Part shown: piece by piece, positions 41,466-46,195 of the stretch
Layout of the letters: each line of letters starts with the position of its first letter
Position numbering within the stretch: position 1 is the first letter of the stretch
DNA from: Thermomonas sp.
GTDB taxonomy: Bacteria; Pseudomonadota; Gammaproteobacteria; Xanthomonadales; Xanthomonadaceae
Reading direction: 5' to 3'
Assembly (NCBI RefSeq): GCF_025993755.1
Contig: NZ_JAMQHN010000062.1
Location: 1 to 46,195, forward strand
DNA length: 46,195 nt
Made by a program: the position numbers and the translations under genes
The notes under the pieces: generated by a model
Databases searched by the model: none
What the model was told of the DNA's origin: nothing
What the model saw: only the letters and a program-made list of their open reading frames with translations

Positions 41466-41544
41466 CGGTGGCAGGTGCAGAGAGGATCCTTCCGCCTTGC
41501 GGGCGGGATTTCCGATCTTGTGAATGCGGTCGCGCTCCGCTAGG

Positions 41545-42084
41545 ATGCGTTCACGTCTTGAACGCATGGAGCCCCGCAGCGTGCGGTACTGGTTCGCCGT
41601 GACCACCAAGCCCCGGTCGGAAGGGCTGGCGTTCGAAAATCTCCAGCGTCAGGGCTATGCCTGCCTGTGGCCACGGGTTCGAAGCGCGCTGCGCGGACCG
41701 GGTGGCATGCGCGAGCGGGTCGAATGCCTGTTTCCCAACTACCTGTTCCTGCACGCCGACCCCGAGCGCGAATCGCTGGCGCCGGTGCGCTCCACCCGCG
41801 GCGCGCTCGGCCTGGTGCGCTTCGGCGGCCAGCCGGCGCGGGTGCCGGAGGGTGTGATCGAACGCATCCGCGCGCGGATCGACGCCGACGACGGGCTGGT
41901 GCGTCTGGAAACCCCGGAACTGGCGCCTGGCGATCGGGTGCGGGTGCGCCAGGGGCCGCTGTCGGGCGTCGAGGGCATCTTCATGGCCGAGAGTGGCAAC
42001 CAGCGCGTGCGCCTGCTGCTGGACCTGCTGGGCAGCACCCGCGAAGTACTGCTGCCGCGCGCGCAGTTGGCGCTGCGCGTGTAG
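41545..42084 (+). CDS. rfaH: transcription antitermination factor RfaH
   Basis: RfaH is a NusG paralogue that loads on RNA polymerase at ops sites, suppresses termination and couples translation in long surface-polysaccharide operons. The product has 179 residues from the ATG at 41545, or 172 from 41566. The NGN domain reads WFAVTTKPRSEGLAFENLQ, with the RfaH-like PLFPNYLF equivalent (CLFPNYLFLH). The KOW domain follows from about residue 125 (LAPGDRVRVRQGPLSGVEGIF). A perfect ops sequence lies 90 bases downstream, which supports RfaH over NusG itself. Confidence 0.92.
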   Translation: MRSRLERMEPRSVRYWFAVTTKPRSEGLAFENLQRQGYACLWPRVRSALRGPGGMRERVECLFPNYLFLHADPERESLAPVRSTRGALGLVRFGGQPARVPEGVIERIRARIDADDGLVRLETPELAPGDRVRVRQGPLSGVEGIFMAESGNQRVRLLLDLLGSTREVLLPRAQLALRV

Positions 42085-42102: not shown

Positions 42103-42123
42103 CCGCGGGCCTCCGGCCCGTGG
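42103..42123 (+). terminator. hairpin between rfaH and the ops element
   Basis: CCGCGGGCC pairs with GGCCCGTGG (one wobble pair) around a TCC loop, 18 bases after the rfaH stop. There is no T-run, so it is a pause or terminator-like leader structure, not a sure terminator. RfaH-dependent operons often carry such structures near ops. Confidence 0.4.
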
Positions 42124-42173
42124 CGGAATGACAATCCGTGCCAAGCGGGCCCGCGGCGTGCCCCCGACCGCAG

Positions 42174-42185
42174 GGCGGTAGCGTG
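42174..42185 (+). promoter_or_regulatory. ops element (RfaH recruitment site)
   Basis: GGCGGTAGCGTG matches the E. coli operon-polarity-suppressor (JUMPstart core) sequence at all 12 positions. It lies between rfaH and the MarR-type EPS regulator, 14 bases before the latter's start and in the sense orientation. The known mechanism is RNA polymerase pausing here and RfaH binding the exposed non-template strand. Confidence 0.9.
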
Positions 42186-42199
42186 CCTGAAGGCGGCGT

Positions 42200-42574
42200 T
42201 TGCAAGACGCAAAGTTGAACGACGAACTCCGATTGAAGCTGCTGCGCCTGCTGGCCGAACGGCCGGCGATGAGCCAGCGCGAGCTGGCGCAGGCATTGGG
42301 GCTGTCGCTGGGCAAGACCAATTACAGCCTGCGCGCCCTGATCGCCCGCGGCTGGGTCAAGGCCAACAATTTCCGCAGCAGCGGCAACAAGCGCGCCTAC
42401 GCCTACGTGCTGACCCCGAGCGGAATGCAGGCCAAACTGGCCACCGCCGCTCGCTTCCTGATGGCGCGGCAGGCCGAATATGCGCGTCTGGAGCGCGAAA
42501 TCGCCGAACTGCGGGCGGATGTTGCACGGCAACCTGCTGCCGACGCCGATTCGAGGAGCCTGAGGGACGCATGA
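42200..42574 (+). CDS. MarR-type EPS-associated transcriptional regulator
   Basis: The product has 124 residues and starts with a rare TTG at 42200, preceded by GAAGG. The winged helix reads MSQRELAQALGLSLGKTNYSLRALIARGWV, and a C-terminal coiled coil (ARLEREIAELRADVA) probably dimerises. This resembles the MarR_EPS family (I recall TIGR04176), found in exopolysaccharide loci. It is the first gene after the ops element and overlaps galE by four bases. Its target is not known; the operon itself is the natural guess. Confidence 0.87.
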   Translation: MQDAKLNDELRLKLLRLLAERPAMSQRELAQALGLSLGKTNYSLRALIARGWVKANNFRSSGNKRAYAYVLTPSGMQAKLATAARFLMARQAEYARLEREIAELRADVARQPAADADSRSLRDA

Positions 42575-43557
42575 CCACCGTTCTCGTCACCGGCGGCGCC
42601 GGCTACATCGGTGCCCACGCCTGCAAGGCGCTGGCGCGGGCCGGCTACACGCCCGTCACCTACGACAGCCTGGTCCACGGCCATGCCGATGCGGTGCGCT
42701 GGGGGCCGCTGGAGCAGGGCGACATCAGTGACCGCGCCCGCCTCGACGCCGTGCTCGCGCAGTGGCGGCCGGCGGCGGTGATGCACTTCGCCGCCTACGC
42801 CTACGTCGGCGAATCGGTCGAAAACCCCGGCAAGTACTGGCGCAACAACGTCGCCGGCACGCTGACCCTGCTCGAAGCGCTGCGCGACCACGGCATCGGG
42901 TCCTTCGTGTTCTCCAGCACCTGCGCCACCTACGGCGTGCCGCAGCGGCTGCCGCTGACCGAAGACCACCCGCAACATCCGATCAATCCCTACGGCATGA
43001 CCAAGCTCGCGGTCGAGCGCATGCTGGCTGATTTCGATGCCGCCCACGGCCTGCGCTCGATCAGCCTGCGCTACTTCAACGCCGCCGGCGCGGACCCCGA
43101 CGGCGAAACGGGGGAAAGCCACGACCCGGAAACCCACCTGATCCCGCTGGTGCTGGACGCCGCCGCCGGCCGCCGCGCCGGCATCACCGTGTACGGCAGC
43201 GACTATCCCACGCCGGACGGCACCTGCGTGCGCGACTACATCCACGTCAGCGACCTCGCCGAGGCCCACGTGCTGGCGCTGCGCGCGCTGCTGGCCGGCG
43301 CCGGCACCACCGCCTACAACCTCGGCAACGGCCGGGGCTTTTCGGTGCGCGAAGTGATCGACTGCGCGCGCAGCGTTACCGGTCGCCAGATCGCCGAAAC
43401 CCCCGGTCCGCGTCGCCCGGGCGACCCGCCGGTGCTGGTGGGCGATGCCGGCCGCATCCGCAGCGAGCTTGGCTGGGCGCCGAAGCACGTTGAGCTTGCG
43501 GCCATCGTCGGCACCGCCTGGCGCTGGCACCAGTCCCGGCACCCCGATCCTGCATGA
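42571..43557 (+). CDS. galE: UDP-glucose 4-epimerase
   Basis: GalE interconverts UDP-glucose and UDP-galactose (or the N-acetyl forms). The product has 328 residues, with the NAD loop TGGAGYIGAH, the catalytic Tyr141-x3-Lys145 in NPYGMTKLA, the Thr/Ser-rich FSSTCATYG, and CVRDYIHVSDLA near the C-terminus. It supplies sugar nucleotides to the glycan made by this cluster. It overlaps both neighbours by four bases, so it belongs to a tightly coupled operon behind the ops site. Confidence 0.95.
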   Translation: MTTVLVTGGAGYIGAHACKALARAGYTPVTYDSLVHGHADAVRWGPLEQGDISDRARLDAVLAQWRPAAVMHFAAYAYVGESVENPGKYWRNNVAGTLTLLEALRDHGIGSFVFSSTCATYGVPQRLPLTEDHPQHPINPYGMTKLAVERMLADFDAAHGLRSISLRYFNAAGADPDGETGESHDPETHLIPLVLDAAAGRRAGITVYGSDYPTPDGTCVRDYIHVSDLAEAHVLALRALLAGAGTTAYNLGNGRGFSVREVIDCARSVTGRQIAETPGPRRPGDPPVLVGDAGRIRSELGWAPKHVELAAIVGTAWRWHQSRHPDPA

Positions 43558-44411
43558 ATCCACCCGACGCCCGCGACGCGCAGTTCGACCGCGCCCACCT
43601 GACCGAAATCAGCGCGTCCGGCAACTCGCTGCGCGCCGAGCTGCGCGAGCTGTGGGCCTACCGCGACCTGCTGGTGCTGCTGATCCAGCGCGACGTCAGC
43701 ATCCGCTACAAGCAAAGCGCGGTCGGCATCGGCTGGGCGGTGCTGCAGCCGCTGCTGACCACGCTCATCTTCACCGTGGTGTTCGGCAAGTTCGCCAAGC
43801 TGCCGTCGGAAGGCTACCCCTACGCCCTGTACACCATGTGCGCGATGGTGCCCTGGACCTTCTTCACCCGCGCGCTCGGCGGCGCCAGCACCAGCATCGT
43901 CACGTCCTCCAGCATGATCACCAAGGTGTATTTCCCGCGCCTGGTGCTGCCGATCAGCAAGACCGTTTCAGGGCTGGTCGATTTCGCGGTGGCGTTCGGG
44001 ATGCTGATCCTGCTGCTGCTGGCCTACCGGGTGACGCCCAGCCTCGGCCTGCTGCTGCTGCCGCTGTTCGTGCTGCTGGCGCTGGCCACCGCGCTTGGCA
44101 TCGGCCTGTGGCTGACGGCGCTCAACGTGAAGTACCGCGACATCGGCCTGCTGGTGCCGTTCCTCACCCAGATCTGGATGTACGCCTCGCCGATCGCCTA
44201 TTCCAGCCAGATCGTGCCGGCGAAATGGCTGTGGCTGTACAACCTGAACCCCATCGCCGGCGTGGTCGAAGGCTTCCGCTGGGCGCTGCTGGGCAAGGCG
44301 GCCCCCGCGCTCGGCCCGATGGCGCTGTCCTGCACGATGGTCGTGCTGCTGCTGGTCAGCGGCTTCTGGTACTTCCGCCGCACCGAGCGCGAGTTCGCGG
44401 ACAACATCTGA
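43554..44411 (+). CDS. wzm: ABC-2 type polysaccharide exporter permease (Wzm)
   Basis: This is the membrane half of an ABC transporter that moves a finished lipid-linked polysaccharide across the inner membrane. The product has 285 residues with six hydrophobic segments. The amphipathic gate-helix region LLIQRDVSIRYKQSAVGIGW and the closing TEREFADNI are typical of Wzm/RfbA permeases. It overlaps galE by four bases and wzt by one (TGATG). Its pairing with wzt defines a second, Wzy-independent export route beside the wza/wzc/wzy-type genes upstream. Confidence 0.93.
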   Translation: MNPPDARDAQFDRAHLTEISASGNSLRAELRELWAYRDLLVLLIQRDVSIRYKQSAVGIGWAVLQPLLTTLIFTVVFGKFAKLPSEGYPYALYTMCAMVPWTFFTRALGGASTSIVTSSSMITKVYFPRLVLPISKTVSGLVDFAVAFGMLILLLLAYRVTPSLGLLLLPLFVLLALATALGIGLWLTALNVKYRDIGLLVPFLTQIWMYASPIAYSSQIVPAKWLWLYNLNPIAGVVEGFRWALLGKAAPALGPMALSCTMVVLLLVSGFWYFRRTEREFADNI

Positions 44412-45709
44412 TGAGTACCGCCGTCAAGGTCGAAGGCCTGAGCAAGCGCTTCCTGCTGGGGGAAAGCATCGAGCACACCCTGTCCAGCCGGGTTGGCGAC
44501 CTGCTGCGTGGCAGGGGCTTGCGGCGCAGCGCCGGGCGCGAGGAATTCTGGGCGCTGCGCGACGTCAATTTCGAAGCCGAGGAAGGCCAGGCGCTGGGCA
44601 TCATCGGCGGCAACGGCGCCGGCAAGTCCACTTTGCTCAAGGTGCTGTCGCGGATCACCCCGCCGACCGAGGGCCGTGCCCGCGTCAAGGGACGCCTGTC
44701 CAGCCTGCTGGAAGTCGGCACCGGCTTCCACCCGGAGTTGACCGGGCGCGAGAACGTGTTCCTCAACGGCGCAATTCTGGGCATGCGCAAGGCCGAAGTG
44801 CAGCGCAAGTTCGACGAGATCGTGGCCTTTTCCGGCGTCGAGAAATTCATCGACACCCCGGTCAAGCGCTATTCCTCCGGCATGTACGTCCGCCTGGCCT
44901 TCGCCGTCGCCGCCCACCTGGAACCGGACGTGCTGATCATCGACGAGGTGCTGGCGGTCGGCGACGCCGACTTCCAGAAGCGCTGCCTCGGCAAGATGGG
45001 TGAAGTGGCCAGCCAGGGACGCACCGTGCTGTTCGTCAGCCACAACATGGCGGCAGTGCAGAAGCTGTGCCAGCGGGCGGTGTGGATGCGGGACGGGCAG
45101 GTGGCGCAGATCGGGGCATCCGAAGAGGTCATCGGCGCCTATATCGGCGCGTCCAGCCCCAGGGAGAACAGAGGGGAGTCATTGCGCCCTGGCTATCTTT
45201 ACCAATCCGATGATGGCGAGGAGGCCGGCAGCGAGGCCCGGGTGACCTCCCTGCAACTGTTGGACATGTGCGATCGTCCACTGCAGGCAGCCGCGACGTT
45301 CGAGGCGCTCAAATTCAGAATCGAATTCTCGACGCCACGCCTCTATCGGAGTTTTTCCGCCGTGTTGCAGGTCACGACGGCAGACGGCGTTCCGCTCCTG
45401 CTTACCTCGACCTCACCCGACCAACAGCTGGCATTCTCGGTGTCGGAAGGTCGCTACGTGATCGATTGTGATTTCGAGCGATTTCCGCTCGCGGCGGGGG
45501 AGTACCTGCTCGGGCTGGGATTGGCCATTCCCGGCGTCGAGTTTGTCTGGCGCGACGATGCCGTGTGCCGATTGCACGTGGTGCCCAGGGACGTCTTCGC
45601 ATCCGGCTTGCCACCGGCGTCCAACCGCTACCTCGTGGCCACGCCGCACCGCTGGGGCGCGTTGCGTGAGCTTGATGCTTTCGATGTGCGGGAAGCGCAT
45701 GGAGGATGA
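44411..45709 (+). CDS. wzt: ABC polysaccharide exporter ATPase with glycan-binding tail (Wzt)
   Basis: This is the ATPase partner of Wzm, 432 residues. The nucleotide-binding domain has Walker A GGNGAGKST (Lys72), the Wzt-type signature RYSSGMYVRLAFA, Walker B LIIDEVLAVGD and the switch His in FVSHNMAA. After about residue 250 a beta-sandwich domain follows (AATFEALKFRIEFSTP ... SEGRYVIDCDFERFPLAAGEYLLGLGL), as in Wzt proteins whose tail recognises the modified non-reducing end of the glycan. From about 45155 codon choice changes (AGG, AGA, TCA, TTG, more T/A at third positions), which suggests the tail was acquired or exchanged separately. The methyltransferase gene overlaps its end by 11 bases. 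Confidence 0.93.
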   Translation: MSTAVKVEGLSKRFLLGESIEHTLSSRVGDLLRGRGLRRSAGREEFWALRDVNFEAEEGQALGIIGGNGAGKSTLLKVLSRITPPTEGRARVKGRLSSLLEVGTGFHPELTGRENVFLNGAILGMRKAEVQRKFDEIVAFSGVEKFIDTPVKRYSSGMYVRLAFAVAAHLEPDVLIIDEVLAVGDADFQKRCLGKMGEVASQGRTVLFVSHNMAAVQKLCQRAVWMRDGQVAQIGASEEVIGAYIGASSPRENRGESLRPGYLYQSDDGEEAGSEARVTSLQLLDMCDRPLQAAATFEALKFRIEFSTPRLYRSFSAVLQVTTADGVPLLLTSTSPDQQLAFSVSEGRYVIDCDFERFPLAAGEYLLGLGLAIPGVEFVWRDDAVCRLHVVPRDVFASGLPPASNRYLVATPHRWGALRELDAFDVREAHGG

Positions 45710-46195
45710 AGTCCGCTGTCGCAGTTGCGGTGGCGATGGCTTGGTCGACCTCGGTCCGATACCCGGAAGTCAGGACGAACGGGCTTCCGCCCAGGCCCAC
45801 CTGTACCGGTGTCCGCACTGCGCGCTGGGGCAACGCCATCCCATTCCGGATGCGGCCGGCATCGCGGCGTTGTATGCCGATGCCATGCCGGAAGAAATGG
45901 CCTACGTCTACGAGGACAATGCCGCGTGGGCACTGGCGAGAAACATGCTGGTCAAGCGTCTGGTGTCGGTGGAATCACCCAATGTCCTCGACGTCGGTTG
46001 CCATACCGGTCGCTTCCTCGCGGGCTTGCCCAAGGCGTGGCGACGCTTCGGGGTCGAGAATCCTGGCCCACCTGCCGACGCAGCACGCCGGGACAACCAG
46101 GTCGAGATCATCGCTGACTGGATCGAGACGGTCGGGGGCGAATGGGATGCACGGTTCGACGCCGTCAGCCTGTTCGACGTGTTCGAACACGTCCC
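45699..46195 (+). CDS. class I SAM-dependent methyltransferase, partial
   Basis: The gene runs off the right edge after 165 codons. The N-terminus has a Cys7-x2-Cys10 ... Cys38-x2-Cys41 zinc-ribbon-like knuckle (VRCRSCGG and YRCPHCAL). The SAM motif I follows (VLDVGCHTGRFL, Asp98-Gly104), and the post-I region ends FDAVSLFDVFEHV. This layout is common in methyltransferases of surface-polysaccharide clusters. ATGs at 45675 and 45684 are in frame and would lengthen the N-terminus. Next to wzt, it could cap or decorate the glycan end that the Wzt tail recognises, but that is inference. Its base composition resembles the Wzt tail. Confidence 0.85.
   Translation, partial: MEDEVRCRSCGGDGLVDLGPIPGSQDERASAQAHLYRCPHCALGQRHPIPDAAGIAALYADAMPEEMAYVYEDNAAWALARNMLVKRLVSVESPNVLDVGCHTGRFLAGLPKAWRRFGVENPGPPADAARRDNQVEIIADWIETVGGEWDARFDAVSLFDVFEHV

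Follow-up and report, generated by a model that had tools for sequence, protein, structure and literature searches.

A stretch of Thermomonas DNA that codes for an RfaH protein and a MarR_EPS regulator on either side of an ops element is quite likely, as we read the sequence, to be a self-contained two-gate module of a surface-polysaccharide operon, with one gate at initiation (a MarR operator) and the other at elongation (RfaH acting at ops). The module is real and conserved and probably functional, with a predicted mechanism. Its parts are known; their combination is new.

The window, as we call the whole stretch of DNA that was analysed, is one complete contig of 46,195 nucleotides; the draft genome to which it belongs comprises 207 contigs and 2.69 Mb. 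On the 5' side of rfaH it carries genes with family matches to Poly_export, Wzz/kinase, Wzy_C, nucleotide-sugar dehydrogenase and epimerase/dehydratase (polysaccharide/export). The features used below are the following, in order along the forward strand:

41518-41546, + strand: promoter-like TTGTGA-N17-TAGGAT, found by eye, with 8 of 12 consensus positions
41549-41563, + strand: palindrome GTTCA-N5-TGAAC at a conserved position, the probable MarR_EPS operator
41566-42084, + strand: rfaH, 172 aa (TIGR01955, E 2e-37, 128.6 bits, curated cut-off 144.5; Pfam NusG)
42153-42171, + strand: possible 5' hairpin, GCGG (42153-42156) with CCGC (42168-42171), from comparison of relatives
42167-42191, + strand: extended ops element ACCGCAG-GGCGGTAGCGTG-CCTGAA, with flanks conserved over 54 sites
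42174-42185, + strand: ops core GGCGGTAGCGTG, a sequence match whose position is conserved in relatives
42215-42574, + strand: marR_EPS regulator with a TTG start, alternative start 42200 (TIGR04176, 137.7 bits, curated cut-off 88)
42571-43557, + strand: galE (TIGR01179, 428 bits)
43554-44411, + strand: wzm-like ABC permease (PF01061)
44411-45709, + strand: wzt-like ATPase with a Wzt_C domain (PF00005 and PF14524)
45699-46195, + strand: methyltransferase, truncated by the window end (PF13489/Methyltransf_23, 27.9 bits against 27)

The initial annotation of this DNA reported the exact 12-mer GGCGGTAGCGTG at 42174-42185 on the forward strand and its identity with the E. coli ops core. The 12-mer is present there, and the same 12 bases occur in both E. 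coli K-12 leaders examined (rfb and waaQ); GGCGGTAGNNTG, the degenerate pattern of that annotation, has a single exact match in the window, at this same site. The gene overlaps described from marR through galE, wzm and wzt to the methyltransferase agree with the coordinates. Other details needed adjustment. The distance from rfaH to ops had been given as 90 bases and is nearly that, the rfaH stop codon ending at 42084 and leaving a gap of 89 nt. For marR, the TTG start codon stood, but its placement 14 bases past ops gave way to the TTG at 42215 (29 nt after ops), which is more likely because the TIGR04176 match extrapolates to that position. First calls of the start in four relatives (G003, G006, G022 and G030) lie 27-28 nt after ops; anchored on the HMM, the distances become 27, 109, 28 and 31 nt, with 236 nt in G021 and 335 nt in G019, and since these anchored starts vary, the ops-to-marR distance is not fixed. 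Finally, ops had been said to head the exopolysaccharide operon. It does precede marR_EPS-galE-wzm-wzt, but a probable promoter and operator precede rfaH, and thus the transcript probably begins before that gene and ops is probably not its head. Between rfaH and ops, no promoter- or terminator-like site scored above the scan threshold.

The initial annotation also proposed comparing rfaH-ops adjacency across the family. When 198 Lysobacteraceae genomes were searched for rfaH (E up to 1e-20), the gene proved sporadic, being found in nine, and in all nine the exact 12-mer follows 56-111 nt past rfaH on the same strand. Within the genus, where a true rfaH was defined by E under 1e-30, 9 of 25 genomes have the gene, again with ops after it in 9 of 9 (six exact, three mismatched at the last base). 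A wider survey combined these relatives with an RfaH alignment scan of named genomes, from which the best 80 of 553 confirmed candidates were taken, for a total of 104 loci. Removal of near-duplicates (8 of 104) left 96 distinct loci, mostly from Beta- and Gammaproteobacteria; for the count by strand, an imperfect filter removed 6 of 104 and left 98. In the 96 loci (named genomes: best 80 of 553), ops lies 45-242 nt (median 83) downstream of rfaH in 46, with 41 exact and 5 one-mismatch sites, while 8 have a distal exact copy only, 34 have none in the examined stretch and 8 are too short. Exact copies in the 98 loci, which have the same scope and still include a few near-duplicates, number 53 on the rfaH strand and 0 on the opposite strand. 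In one family (f9), 11 of 13 loci examined show no ops, 10 of these having more than 1 kb of downstream sequence and one having 109 nt. As judged from these loci, rfaH-ops adjacency is common but neither obligatory nor universal.

Conservation extends past the 12-mer. Over 54 sites the core is preceded by A-Y-Y-G-Y-A-G and followed by C-C-Y-G-A-A, and the best-kept flanking bases include G at -4 (50/54), A at -2 (52/54) and C at 14 (47/54). Several loci show departures from the usual layout. L130, scored as 'none' in the survey, has rfaH and marR and then a GGCGGTAGCATG site. Degenerate ops-like sequences, GGCGGTAGCTTC in L158 and GGCGGTAGGCTT in L153, lie 47 and 62 nt past rfaH and are possibly decaying or divergent. 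L117, a Gammaproteobacterial cluster, has two exact and two one-mismatch ops-like sites and two marR_EPS genes, all on the same strand, an arrangement that looks like a duplication of the module.

The presence of ops goes together with that of marR_EPS. Among the surveyed rfaH loci (named genomes: best 80 of 553), marR_EPS is found in the stretch in 48 of 54 that bear ops versus 4 of 34 that do not (p 2e-13). The gene order in the 54 ops-bearing loci, with the same scope, is rfaH-marR in 28 and marR-rfaH in 20, with marR not found in 6; ops lies beyond marR in 5 of the 28 and before marR in 2 of the 20. By eye, the genes after ops in nine loci are seven nucleotide-sugar dehydrogenases, one epimerase and one ABC-type transporter.

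The association can also be approached from the regulator. In the local stretch around 26 marR_EPS loci of relatives, both rfaH and ops are present in 15, ops only in 1, rfaH only in 1 and neither in 9 (Fisher p 3e-5). The ops-only locus belongs to G032; there, rfaH is on the same contig but some 6.3 kb farther upstream. All nine loci with neither are from the genus of the window (G002, G007, G008, G009, G015, G016, G018, G023 and G024), and two of them, L009 and L023, end at contig ends. For 30 class-wide marR_EPS loci, scored for ops near marR and for rfaH anywhere in the genome, both are present in 11, ops only in 1, rfaH only in 2 and neither in 16 (p 1.5e-5); two of the 12 ops sites carry one mismatch. 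These counts retain as exceptions G034 and G776 (rfaH and marR_EPS, no recognised ops), G636 (a one-mismatch ops, rfaH not found) and G760 (rfaH present, no ops in the 7.8 kb around marR).

These comparisons bear on whether the window's 12-mer could have arisen by chance within a GC-rich leader. The initial annotation had called a 12-base match very unlikely by chance, and given the window composition the probability is 2.3e-7 per position, or 3e-5 per 130-nt leader. Taken by itself the 12-mer is weak evidence: the whole genome has two exact copies against 1.2 expected by composition, an expectation that speaks for chance, and the second copy lies inside a FecR-like open frame (named by eye). 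GGCGGTAGNNTG occurs three times in the genome, compared with 12 for the reversed pattern and 10.9 expected. The match is significant because of its position and conservation, not its genomic count. As the site keeps its position, its strand and its flanks and occurs together with rfaH, a chance origin is scarcely conceivable, and we regard it as ruled out by the comparative data.

Other copies of the 12-mer were considered as possible further targets, since the initial annotation had named many ops copies away from polysaccharide genes as an observation that would count against it. Such copies occur at the background rate: within the genus, 10 exact non-adjacent 12-mers were found in the 9 rfaH-bearing genomes versus 15 in 16 genomes lacking rfaH. 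Inspection of 13 (these 10, with 3 from other Lysobacteraceae) revealed none with both conserved flanks; frames of at least 200 aa that are stop-free on at least one strand contain 12 of them, and the remaining one is in a frame of 126 aa. Since ops copies elsewhere in these genomes are not in excess, RfaH probably serves a single operon.

A different picture, in which RfaH acts in trans on several operons as in E. coli, with the adjacent ops as one target whose closeness is incidental, is unlikely in view of those counts, the other 12-mers being about as frequent without rfaH as with it and free of the paired flanks. It does draw support from two genomes in which an ops-bearing marR locus is far from rfaH. 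In G626 the two are on separate contigs, and the surroundings of rfaH showed no ops. In G575 (L252) a marR-like gene and ops adjoin rfaH, and a second ops-marR_EPS locus is about 137 kb away, so that one factor with two targets is possible there. These arrangements suggest that RfaH can also act at a distance. The trans reading is further favoured by the protein itself, in which residues for ops contact (K10 and R73) and for autoinhibition (E48, I93 and F130) are all kept. The kept residues count in favour of the two-gate module as well. R23, Q24 and T72, which we take to be ops-contact residues as well, are likewise kept, as are R138 and L142; R16L, H20N, T68P, N70R and other sites are changed relative to E. 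coli. The E. coli roles of K10, R73, E48, I93 and F130 are those given in passages of PMC7593976.

In overall sequence the window protein matches the RfaH family TIGR01955 best, at 128.6 bits although under the curated cut-off, followed by the models for UpxY (79.2 bits), LoaP (42.5 bits) and NusG (29.7 bits). A search of its own genome with the RfaH model returned two matches, RfaH and a much weaker one taken as NusG. In a tree, the RfaH proteins of the genus fall into two separate clades of six and three. Forcing all nine into one group is worse by 121.5 log units (AU p 1.7e-8, from a test run after a quick tree had been seen, on a group not named in advance). In the clade of six rfaH precedes marR; in the clade of three, marR precedes rfaH in two, and in the third (L120) marR was not found in the stretch. 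The two clades fit separate acquisition of the module. The earlier idea that the module travels with the polysaccharide cluster is borne out by these clades, together with the sporadic occurrence of rfaH and its constant association with ops in the family. Some source labels or bins look wrong: L093, L091 and L166 are labelled Obscuribacter, Xanthomonas and Bacteroidetes, respectively, and the RfaH proteins of the first two are close to Thermomonas, that of the third to Oxalobacteraceae.

The initiation gate is suggested by the sequence before rfaH. The promoter-like elements at 41518-41546 did not score above threshold in a promoter scan of that site; in relatives, TTGAC.. and TA..T elements can be seen by eye at similar places in a set of 94 loci, obtained by dropping near-duplicates and loci with other than one palindrome. 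Just two bases separate the palindrome GTTCA-N5-TGAAC from the start of rfaH. It has no second copy in the window or in the rest of the genome, where 0.67 would be expected by composition. When spacers of 0-12 were allowed, the spacer was 5 in 114 of 124 palindrome matches. In several relatives the palindrome overlaps or follows the promoter-like elements (by eye).

The placement of the palindrome was compared with that of ops at 74 sites. Besides the 96 surveyed loci, this comparison took in 9 of the 26 order-level ones (excluding 6 repeats and 11 that lack ops), 28 of the 30 from the class (excluding L209 and L211 as repeats) and, from the 26 marR_EPS loci, L010. The palindrome is upstream of 69 sites, only downstream of 1 and absent within 3 kb of 4. 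Its distance to ops is 60-151 nt at 14 sites, 582-773 nt at 30 and 819-1261 nt at 23, with 2 sites between, and these groups fit no, one or two intervening genes. In relatives it is usually at whichever gene comes first in the module. With a narrow limit on position, the palindrome is at rfaH in 21 of 36 loci with rfaH first, at marR in 20 of 27 with marR first and at marR in 22 of 35 with marR only; it is also at rfaH in 11 of 58 rfaH loci where marR was not found in the stretch. This placement count takes some loci twice (L011 = L039, L209 = L143 and L211 = L161). In six rfaH-first loci with ops beyond marR (L097, L118, L130, L140, L149 and L150), the palindrome is at marR.

The palindrome also marks 24 of 26 marR_EPS loci that have no rfaH or ops in the stretch, which makes MarR_EPS, assigned here well above the family cut-off, the obvious candidate binder. 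The 11 loci with the palindrome at rfaH and no marR in the stretch count against this assignment. GTTCA-N5-TGAAC is probably the MarR_EPS operator, a prediction that applies to the MarR_EPS family. In the portion of the open-licence PubMed Central literature that was covered, no published MarR_EPS binding site was found.

In the proposed mechanism, MarR_EPS would repress its own transcript by binding at GTTCA-N5-TGAAC, over the promoter that precedes rfaH. On derepression, polymerase would transcribe rfaH and pause at ops about 90 nt farther on, where RfaH made from the same transcript would bind ops in the non-template strand. RfaH would then exclude NusG and so Rho, and polymerase would run through marR-galE-wzm-wzt and beyond. 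If RfaH also recruited ribosomes, a marR gene past ops might lack Shine-Dalgarno pairing; mean values were -1.14 for 31 marR genes after ops and -1.99 for 61 without, and the difference is not significant (p 0.10). At least two of the 61 (L010 and L141) are mis-sorted because the called start lies inside ops.

A further element may lie just 5' of ops. Across relatives, the fold energy of the segment from -30 to -1 has a mean z of -1.65 relative to shuffles, compared with -1.01 to +0.27 for other segments; the -1.01 belongs to a second, weaker dip about 70-41 nt 5' of ops (42104-42133 in the window). In the family the two arms of this hairpin covary, as judged by swapping 5' arms among loci, which lowers the pairing every time. 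None of 2000 swaps attained the observed pairing, for either the 54 sites or 35 cluster representatives, and the fractions were 4/5000 for 10 held-out class-wide sites and 40/5000 for 11 order-level sites. Six of these 11 repeat loci already used, so only the 10 class-wide sites count as held out, and because related loci share both arms, the fractions are not exact probabilities. At one position the pair type changes on both sides among G-C, A-T and T-A. Folded alone, the hairpin of the window itself is not more stable than its shuffles (z +1.33); in the lowest-energy window fold CCGC pairs instead with 42145-42148. A stem that stops short of ops was preferred to an ACCGC:GCGGT pairing inside ops, which had been considered first: in that pairing the 3' arm would consist of invariant ops bases, and it does not suit several of the loci.

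The Rfam JUMPstart model RF01707 scored 16.7 bits (E 1.8) on the window, below its cut-off of 35, and gave no match at the cut-off in 14 relatives or in 14 further ones (L049 reached 27.4 bits). On the comparative evidence we take the element to be a diverged counterpart of Rfam JUMPstart that reaches beyond the 12-mer; these loci suggest that the hairpin and the 3' flank, in addition to the 12-mer, belong to the functional ops. The E. coli ops pause is described in part of PMC11001881 as distinct from hairpin-stabilised pauses, and anti-backtracking factors are reported there to promote escape. We suggest that a hairpin close behind the paused enzyme could make backtracking harder.

Adjacency invites one more explanation: a constitutively active, NusG-like RfaH that is recruited co-translationally in cis without needing ops, as in the monomorphic class of PMC13015549, ops being no more than a pause site. 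We consider this marginally less probable than action in trans. The window rfaH does adjoin its operon, as passages of PMC13015549 report for monomorphic proteins, and AlphaFold gives it a NusG-like beta KOW domain, but the control L134 is also predicted as beta, so AlphaFold cannot decide the free fold or autoinhibition. A more specific form of the two-gate proposal is a mobile cassette of MarR_EPS operator-promoter, rfaH, marR_EPS and hairpin-ops, in which an autoinhibited, ops-dependent RfaH would work in cis on a single operon; we hold this tentatively, at somewhat less than an even chance. If true, this would add a third state to the trans/metamorphic and cis/monomorphic ones of PMC13015549. 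Recognition of ops may then have originated at this step, and the hairpin in the nascent RNA would be an ancient second half of the element.

The closest known system is E. coli RfaH with its ops/JUMPstart leaders (rfb and waa), which shares the 12-mer core, surface-polysaccharide targets and an RfaH-type protein. Both K-12 leaders (rfb and waaQ) also have a hairpin with its stem ending just before ops, as in the present family. In part of the description of RF01707 (Weinberg 2010, PMC2864571), a stem-loop is likewise directly 5' of the ops core; those stems differ in often being longer and of other sequence, and the model reaches its cut-off in both K-12 leaders. Unlike in E. coli, here rfaH is adjacent, there is one apparent target, and a MarR_EPS gene and an operator-like palindrome are present. 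That rfaH is remote in E. coli, as the initial annotation had it, is correct: in K-12 the gene lies between tatD and ubiD, and the 10 kb around it contain no ops with up to one mismatch.

LoaP, as here, is an antiterminator whose gene accompanies the operon it acts on. Passages of PMC7593976 describe UpxY and TaA as being of this kind. Unlike UpxY and LoaP, the window protein fits RfaH better than either of those families (128.6 vs 79.2 and 42.5 bits) and has ops. The same passages describe one RfaH cluster that adjoins an HTH regulator and several that adjoin polysaccharide genes. Cluster CL4 (Wang 2020, PMC7593976) has, in what is described there, both beside rfaH, as here, and we would guess that it and the window RfaH probably belong to the same group. 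Those passages detail recruitment for E. coli RfaH only, give the recruitment modes of operon-encoded paralogues as unknown and, apart from the known E. coli type, mention no ops adjoining rfaH, whereas the present loci have one. Within the open-licence PubMed Central literature covered, neither rfaH-ops adjacency nor the palindrome was found.

RfaH is a well-studied fold-switching factor, and loci with a cis-encoded RfaH and conserved ops make it possible to test, in existing reporters, how a local activator became one that acts remotely and in a sequence-specific way. According to passages of PMC13015549, most metamorphic RfaH proteins act in trans via ops and most monomorphic ones adjoin a long operon. 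Adjacent rfaH-ops pairs that keep both the contact and the autoinhibition residues do not fit this division well.
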